From Brevinematales bacterium (GTDB lineage: Bacteria; Spirochaetota; Brevinematia; DTOW01), in NCBI GenBank assembly GCA_026415355.1, contig JAOAHF010000007.1:1-64000 (forward strand): 64,000 nt of DNA, in the 5' to 3' direction. Shown here in pieces: positions 60,586-63,102 of the stretch; position 1 is the first letter of the stretch, and every line of letters begins with the position of its first letter. Both the position numbers and the translations under genes were made by a program. A model generated the notes under the pieces. That model saw only the letters and a program-made list of their open reading frames with translations. It was not told the DNA's origin and searched no databases.

Positions 60586-60780
60586 TCAAGGATTTTTAGA
60601 CTTATCTGTCTCATTCAACTCACTACCAGTGATTTTAGTGAAGATTATAGAAGCGAGTTGAGATGCAACATAATCAATGTAAGATGGATCTCTTATTTTA
60701 CTTCTCAGCTCTTTGATTTCCTCCTCCGTGAGCCTAGAACGGAGTCTATTTTTAGACTGCCTCACTCTTACCTTGGACAT
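60586..60780 (-). CDS. Small basic protein under likely CsrA control
   Basis: 64 residues, charged and helical: M-S-K-V-R-V-R-Q-S-K-N-R-L-R-S-R-L-T-E-E-E-I then a less charged second half with no membrane segment. No family is recognised. It has a canonical ribosome site (AAGGAGG) 7 nt before the ATG. Its start codon lies in a hairpin that fits the CsrA recognition consensus, and a second such hairpin lies 35 nt upstream. It is the last gene after mazG and yraN, 51 nt behind yraN. Confidence 0.7.
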   Translation of the reverse strand: MSKVRVRQSKNRLRSRLTEEEIKELRSKIRDPSYIDYVASQLASIIFTKITGSELNETDKSKNP

Positions 60781-60824
60781 CCTTGTCCCTCCTTAAATAC
60801 ATATTTCAGGAACATCCTTGTTCC
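60775..60824 (-). promoter_or_regulatory. Tandem CsrA-type binding hairpins
   Basis: On the minus strand, GGAACAAGGATGTTCC (60809-60824) and GGACAAGGATGTCC (60775-60788) each contain ACAAGGATGT. This is a perfect match to the SELEX CsrA core ACARGGAUGU, with AAGGAT as a hexaloop on a 5-bp or 4-bp stem. The downstream site encloses the ATG (60778-60780) of the 64-residue gene. CsrA binding there would block translation initiation. csrA itself is not in the window. Confidence 0.75.
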
Positions 60825-62157: not shown

Positions 62158-63102
62158 TTAATTCAGATCTATTTCAAGTAACTCAGGAGATTTTGTCTTT
62201 ATTATTTCTTTCATCCTCTCTAAAGCACGATTTTCTATCTGTCTAACTCTCTCTTTTGTGAATCCCATTATTTCTCCTATTTCTTTCAAAGAGTATTGCT
62301 TTCCGTAGAAACCGAATCTATACTTTATTATTTCCCTTTCCTTCTCAGGAAGAGAATCAACTATTTTTCTTATCTCCTCAGTTAGGGCATTTCTCATTAT
62401 AGTTTTTTCAGGATGTTCAACTGTTTGAGATTCTACATTCAAAAACTCATCATAAGTTGAGTCATTATCTTCAAAAGCATTGCTATCAAAAGATATGTAA
62501 TTTTTACTCTTTCTGTTGAGGAGGATTTGAACATCTTTTTCTTTTATATTAAGTTCCTTAGATATAGTCTCAACTGATGGTGTTTTACCGTTTTCTGCTT
62601 CATATTCTCTGATAAACTTCTCAATTTTGAGAAGCTCATTAGTTCTGTTCATAGGAAATCTTACGAGTCTTGATCTCTCAGAGATGTACTTTAGAATGGA
62701 TTGTTTTATCCACCAAACAGCATAAGATATGAAATGTAAACCTCTTCTATAGTCAAATTTATCAACAGCAATCATTAATCCAACATTTCCCTCACTTATA
62801 AGATCTGCAATTGGAATACCAGTGTTTATGTAGTTTTTAGCAACACTAACAACAAACCTCAAATTAGAAAGAATAAGCCTAGATCTTGCTTCTTTATCTC
62901 CATTTGAAGCTCTCTTTGCTAATTCAACCTCTTCTTCTCTGGTAAGAAGTGGAAATTTTTCTACAGCTTTAAAGTATTTCAATACAATGTTTTCAGCATT
63001 TGTTGCATTGCATCTAGCATTGTCTAACATTTTACTCAGCTCTTCTTGAATCTTAATGGGATCTTCAGAACTGATATTCTTCCTAATGTTCCTAGTTTTC
63101 AT
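62158..63102 (-). CDS. Group 2 sigma-70 factor (RpoS/RpoD-like)
   Basis: 314 residues. Region 1.2 is shortened (Y-F-K-A-V-E-K-F-P-L-L-T-R-E-E-E). Region 2 has L-I-S-E-G-N-V-G-L-M and Y-A-V-W-W-I-K-Q-S-I. Region 3 has T-P-S-V-E-T-I-S-K-E-L-N-I, and region 4 ends T-K-E-R-V-R-Q-I-E-N-R-A-L. It lacks the acidic N-terminus and region 1.1 of the rpoD product at 25-27 kb, so it is an alternative sigma factor with similar promoter preference. Which regulon it serves cannot be told here. Ribosome site AGAGGTG. Confidence 0.92.
   Translation of the reverse strand: MKTRNIRKNISSEDPIKIQEELSKMLDNARCNATNAENIVLKYFKAVEKFPLLTREEEVELAKRASNGDKEARSRLILSNLRFVVSVAKNYINTGIPIADLISEGNVGLMIAVDKFDYRRGLHFISYAVWWIKQSILKYISERSRLVRFPMNRTNELLKIEKFIREYEAENGKTPSVETISKELNIKEKDVQILLNRKSKNYISFDSNAFEDNDSTYDEFLNVESQTVEHPEKTIMRNALTEEIRKIVDSLPEKEREIIKYRFGFYGKQYSLKEIGEIMGFTKERVRQIENRALERMKEIIKTKSPELLEIDLN

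Follow-up and report, generated by a model that had tools for sequence, protein, structure and literature searches.

Two CsrA-type hairpins at the start of a short FlgM-like gene form a predicted bivalent operator in a Brevinematales spirochaete

How is a small gene controlled when its leader carries two CsrA-type hairpins, one of which encloses the start codon? The question is raised by a stretch of 64,000 nucleotides (nt) from a Brevinematales bacterium (positions 1 to 64,000 of contig JAOAHF010000007.1, assembly GCA_026415355.1; hereafter the window), the minus strand of which contains an open reading frame (ORF) of 64 residues preceded by such a leader and coding for a protein that resembles the C-terminal region of FlgM. 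An initial annotation had proposed that the small protein is a target of CsrA or, alternatively, that its mRNA serves as a CsrA sponge; the first proposal is well supported by the sequence, whereas no specific support was obtained for the second. In the most likely reading, binding of CsrA to both hairpins would block translation of the small protein, placing it within the circuit in which FliW and flagellin act as antagonists and tying it to flagellar control. We infer the binding itself, its outcome as repression rather than activation, the relay through FliW and a sigma-28-type flagellar role for the protein.

The two hairpins lie on the minus strand and share the hexaloop AAGGAT. Hairpin 1, GGGAAC[AAGGAT]GTTCCT (60825-60808; loop in brackets), is the predicted upstream CsrA site; it has six pairs, the outermost being G-U, and starts 6 nt past the stop codon of the preceding yraN gene. 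Hairpin 2, GGAC[AAGGAT]GTCC (60788-60775), has four pairs and is the predicted site at the end of the Shine-Dalgarno (SD) sequence and the start codon. They are separated by 19 nt, which corresponds to 35 nt from loop to loop. Each contains one exact copy of ACAAGGATGT (minus strand, 60812-60821 and 60777-60786), as first described, and both are present in the minimum free energy and centroid structures predicted by RNAfold, with a folding z of -2.73 for a 121-nt leader segment and a weaker value, -1.38, for an 86-nt segment. The CsrA sequence derived by systematic evolution of ligands by exponential enrichment (SELEX) is RUACARGGAUGU, and both hairpins hold its ACARGGAUGU core (PMC7652899), as the annotation had stated. 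The SD sequence AAGGAGG (60794-60788, minus strand) shares its final G with hairpin 2 and is otherwise mostly unpaired in the fold. The ATG of the ORF (60780-60586, minus strand) occupies 60780-60778 and is indeed enclosed by the second hairpin, with the A and T in the loop and the G in the stem; owing to an in-frame stop codon just upstream, it is the only ATG from which the 64-residue ORF can start.

A CsrA operator presupposes CsrA, and the annotation had suggested searching the genome for csrA and fliW. Both were found on another contig, csrA (PF02599, 90 bits) directly after fliW (PF02623, 126 bits). When aligned by position, the CsrA of this genome carries Leu4 and Arg44, at the positions of RNA-contact residues in E. 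coli CsrA, and csrA is present in all 18 genomes examined of the class. Co-occurrence did not tie the small protein to csrA: many genomes have csrA and no small gene, and a few have the small gene alone. It has been reported that a single CsrA dimer can bridge sites 10-63 nt apart (PMC7652899), a range that includes the loop spacing of 32-35 nt seen in this leader and its relatives. The two sites of a single dimer could occupy one hairpin each, making the leader a bivalent operator, and the bound dimer would cover the ribosome-binding site and the start codon, so that translation initiation would be blocked. FliW would relieve the repression and cytoplasmic flagellin would sequester FliW; a single secretion-coupled signal would then govern the synthesis of both flagellin and the small protein.

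Could the motifs be chance matches, or a by-product of coding constraint? Exact ACARGGATGT occurs twice in the window, both times in this leader. A scan of both strands for NNGGAN hexaloops on stems of four or more pairs gave four hairpins, all of them minus-strand; when the loop must be NRGGAN, closed by a Watson-Crick pair on a stem that includes two G-C pairs, hairpins 1 and 2 are the only ones left. First-order Markov simulations of 64 kb (n = 150) gave on average 1.9 NRGGAN hairpins and 0.23 ARGGAT hairpins, and none of the 150 simulated windows had a pair of hairpins within 60 nt. A search of the genome for further ACARGGAUGU hairpins had been suggested; the sequence does recur, with 11 sites against four for a reversed control pattern, but only the two leader sites form clean hairpins at a start codon, the other nine being located inside genes or lacking such a hairpin.

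The claim that two perfect sites are rare in a natural leader was borne out by a scan of one genome per species across about 85,000 species (a set that may lack the genome of the window), in which ACAAGGATGTY followed, after a gap of 8-38 nt, by RACARGGATGTY was searched. The 90 stretches and 109 pairs retrieved are mostly repeats in Poribacteria, Pontibacter and others. Nine pairs survive when stems must extend by two or more pairs, an SD-like string must be present and the ORF must reach 55 codons: three are the same gene of 64-70 residues in three records, a fourth precedes a Desulfobacterales gene whose predicted start resembles a response regulator, and the remaining five were judged by inspection to be repeats or doubtful ORFs. 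Three of the four leader-like pairs of perfect sites with a convincing gene therefore belong to this small gene. In the Desulfobacterales case (JAKSAX010000566.1, minus strand) the two perfect CsrA sites are 24 nt apart at the predicted start of the gene.

The leader was then compared in five genomes of the family, four of one genus and one of a second. Orthologues of the 64-residue protein, with 72-81% identity, are found in the three other genomes of the genus and in that of the second genus, and the small gene and both hairpins are kept in all five, in agreement with the expectation that relatives keeping the gene would keep the hairpins, while the spacer diverges. Loop-to-loop distances are 35, 35, 34, 34 and 32 nt. 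In hairpin 1, 16 of 18 alignment columns are invariant, compared with 8 of 25 among the other non-coding columns of the leader (Fisher p = 0.0002, which is only a guide because alignment columns are not independent), and hairpin 2 is invariant in all 14 columns, a TCC serine codon included. A purely accidental or coding origin of the motifs is thus very improbable: hairpin 2 does lie partly in codons 1-2 and four of the five genomes come from a single genus, but hairpin 1 is non-coding, TCC is invariant although serine has six codons, no simulated window yielded such a pair, and in the species scan this gene is essentially the only one preceded by a perfect pair at its start codon. Hairpin 1 also contains an ATG that opens a frame of about 15 codons in the window; a leader peptide translated from it was considered and rejected, the length, sequence and frame not being kept in the relatives.

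The same alignment bears on the idea that the hairpins are CsrA-independent structures of the ribosome-binding site, acting as a thermometer, as protection or in translational coupling with yraN. Hairpin 2 is short and stands at the start codon, and hairpin 1 is so close to the yraN stop that a terminating ribosome could open it, as would suit such an element. However, the AAGGAT loop is invariant in both hairpins of all five genomes, which base pairing alone would not need; moreover, both hairpins fit the SELEX sequence and most of the SD sequence is unpaired, and we consider this explanation improbable. Eight of the ten stem pairs never vary and the other two vary on one side only, by substitutions that preserve pairing (A-U to G-U and G-U to G-C). 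A sixth copy of the gene with both hairpins, near-identical to that of a family member, is present in a contig filed as 'uncultured Dictyoglomus sp.' (CALHTV010000148.1, 2381-2660), which has probably been misbinned and belongs to this spirochaete family.

If CsrA acts on this leader, does it act elsewhere in the genome? A single-hairpin covariance model was trained on sites picked from these genomes, leaving out the flaB hairpin with the SD sequence in its loop. At E <= 3 it returned six matches in this genome, ranked hairpin 1, hairpin 2, a flaB leader and flgL, the remaining two being weak and not at a start codon; since the model was trained on these same sites, the result shows their rarity elsewhere and does not amount to an independent discovery. 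Covariation in the single-hairpin alignment is partly circular, its rows having been chosen as hairpins, and was not used as proof. In this flaB leader two hairpins follow the same layout, TGCTAGGC[AAGGAT]GCCTAGTA coming first and ACATC[AAGGAG]GATGT, with the SD sequence in the loop, second. One flaB per genome (four loci; in this genome at 18177-18587 of contig C8, plus leader) has a strong AAGGAT or AAGGAC hairpin just 5' of the SD sequence, and in three of these four loci a second hairpin, ACATC[AAGGAG]GATGT, carries the SD sequence in its loop; the leader hairpins of the other flaB copies have a different loop. The flgL leader hairpin has the loop AAGGAT in this genome and ATGACG in two relatives, on a nearly identical stem, which makes flgL a less secure CsrA site; gain or loss of a site may account for the difference.

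That the leader holds the best-scoring CsrA hairpins of the genome could also suggest a sponge, an mRNA that chiefly titrates CsrA and for which control of the small protein would be secondary. There is precedent in C. jejuni, in which flaA mRNA titrates CsrA through a leader that carries a pair of neighbouring GGA hexaloops (PMC4894983). A sponge nevertheless needs abundance, and this leader appears to share a polycistronic unit with housekeeping genes, in which no strong promoter was recognized; in addition, it offers just two sites, sufficient for one dimer, and titration would not need a site placed exactly on the SD sequence and the ATG. We therefore regard a predominant sponge function as unlikely, and translational control of the small gene as the better account of the leader.

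What, then, is the putative target protein? Its N-terminus is basic, and a pair of helices is predicted in the C-terminal part, around DPSYI, at residues 19-30 and 32-51 (structure model pTM 0.41). Comparison of its profile with a spirochaete FlgM profile in hhalign aligned 36 columns with the C-terminal region of FlgM (probability 94%, pairwise E 1.2e-7, an E-value that refers to a single pair of families chosen by us). The motif DPSYID is also present in the full FlgM of Treponema-type genomes, which carry both FlgM and the short protein, and a separate full FlgM, above the PF04316 cut-off, is encoded elsewhere in the genome studied here. A search of PDB sequences with the small-protein profile gave only chance matches. 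At E <= 1e-4 the profile has matches in 205 of 296 Spirochaetota genomes, a maximum figure since FlgM itself may be among them, and the small gene is far more widespread in the phylum than the hairpins. In many loci it lies directly 3' of yraN, and a simple pattern for yraN was found upstream in 17 of 30 loci. In the window the yraN (UPF0102) gene is at 61389-60832 on the minus strand (Pfam PF02021, E 1.6e-10), directly upstream of the small gene, and a pattern scan placed a terminator-like hairpin 3' of it (60575-60550, minus strand), converging on a galU-like gene. From these comparisons the protein appears to be a short one, linked to yraN, that is related to the C-terminal region of FlgM and separate from the full FlgM of the genome.

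The neighbourhood offers another possible partner, since a sigma-70 family factor (62158-63102), nearest to the RpoS and RpoD models, belongs to the same string of genes as mazG, yraN and the small gene. It could be proposed that the small protein is an anti-sigma factor for this gene, with no flagellar role, as the sigma gene is on the same strand, three genes upstream, and FlgM-like proteins bind sigma factors. The conserved linkage is to yraN, however; in the other family members examined, yraN is preceded by different genes and the proximity of the sigma gene is not kept, and a clear sigma-28 (FliA) gene is found elsewhere in the genome. This reading is accordingly disfavoured and seems improbable next to a flagellar connection.

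Several observations weigh against CsrA repression of a flagellar regulator. The compensatory stem changes for which the annotation had proposed comparing relatives are absent, no double-sided change being seen in the five leaders, and the argument thus rests on conservation and not on covariation. Relatives from other families of the class have both csrA and the small gene and lack the hairpins, so that CsrA control would be a trait of this family and not intrinsic to the function of the protein; the missing hairpins also limit the age of the control. A Treponemataceae genome, G214 (rated 99% complete), has the small FlgM-like gene and no csrA match. The Pfam FlgM model (PF04316) does not reach its cut-off with the small protein, only one of nine members matching at all (E 0.02); for this reason, and given the separate FlgM and a profile match limited to the C-terminal region, the protein is termed FlgM-like and not FlgM. 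Finally, CsrA can also act as an activator on some of its targets. A further possibility, rather doubtful and more speculative than translational repression itself, is that the short protein gives the CsrA-FliW switch a second arm that does not depend on flagellin, being repressed by CsrA and acting back on CsrA or FliA; in that case sigma-28 activity would be set by the secretion state through control of translation, either in place of FlgM export or in addition to it. Taken together, the leader provides an unusually clean candidate operator for CsrA in a spirochaete lineage that is deep and uncultured, and it offers the small protein family widespread in Spirochaetota beside yraN its first clue to function; if the repression is real, CsrA would control flagellin plus an FlgM-like regulator, joining the translational and sigma-28 levels of flagellar control.

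In relation to known systems the leader is of a known kind and its target, a short FlgM-like gene, is a new one; CsrA control of such a gene was not found in the literature searched. The closest parallel is B. subtilis hag, which also has two CsrA sites in the leader, one of them on the ribosome-binding site, in a genome with csrA and fliW, FliW being the antagonist (PMC7652899); here, by contrast, the target is the short FlgM-like gene in place of a flagellin gene, the ATG itself falls within the downstream site, and both loops carry the perfect SELEX core. Gel shifts show CsrA binding to the flgM mRNA of C. jejuni, and flaA mRNA is both target and titrator in that species (PMC4894983), so that CsrA control of an FlgM-like gene has a precedent of sorts, although the C. 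jejuni flgM is full length with CsrA enrichment reported in the ORF, whereas here a truncated FlgM-like gene has an operator at its start codon; the spacing of sites also differs, 21 nt in C. jejuni against 35 nt. Among spirochaetes, CsrA represses flagellin genes or has sites near their SD sequence (Borrelia flaB, Leptospira flaB3, Treponema denticola flaB1 and flaB2; PMC9481697; PMC8668096), and the present genome likewise has such a site on a flaB. The FlgM of T. denticola (TDE0201) offers a likeness at the protein level, the C-terminal FlgM stretch of a Treponema-type genome, KIEEVRRKFQDPSYIDSVLDQTADKIL, resembling LTEEEIKELRSKIRDPSYIDYVASQLASII here, but the 64-residue protein is without the N-terminal half. 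According to a review, T. denticola FlgM interacts with CsrA (PMC12655853), which makes feedback of the small protein on CsrA possible.
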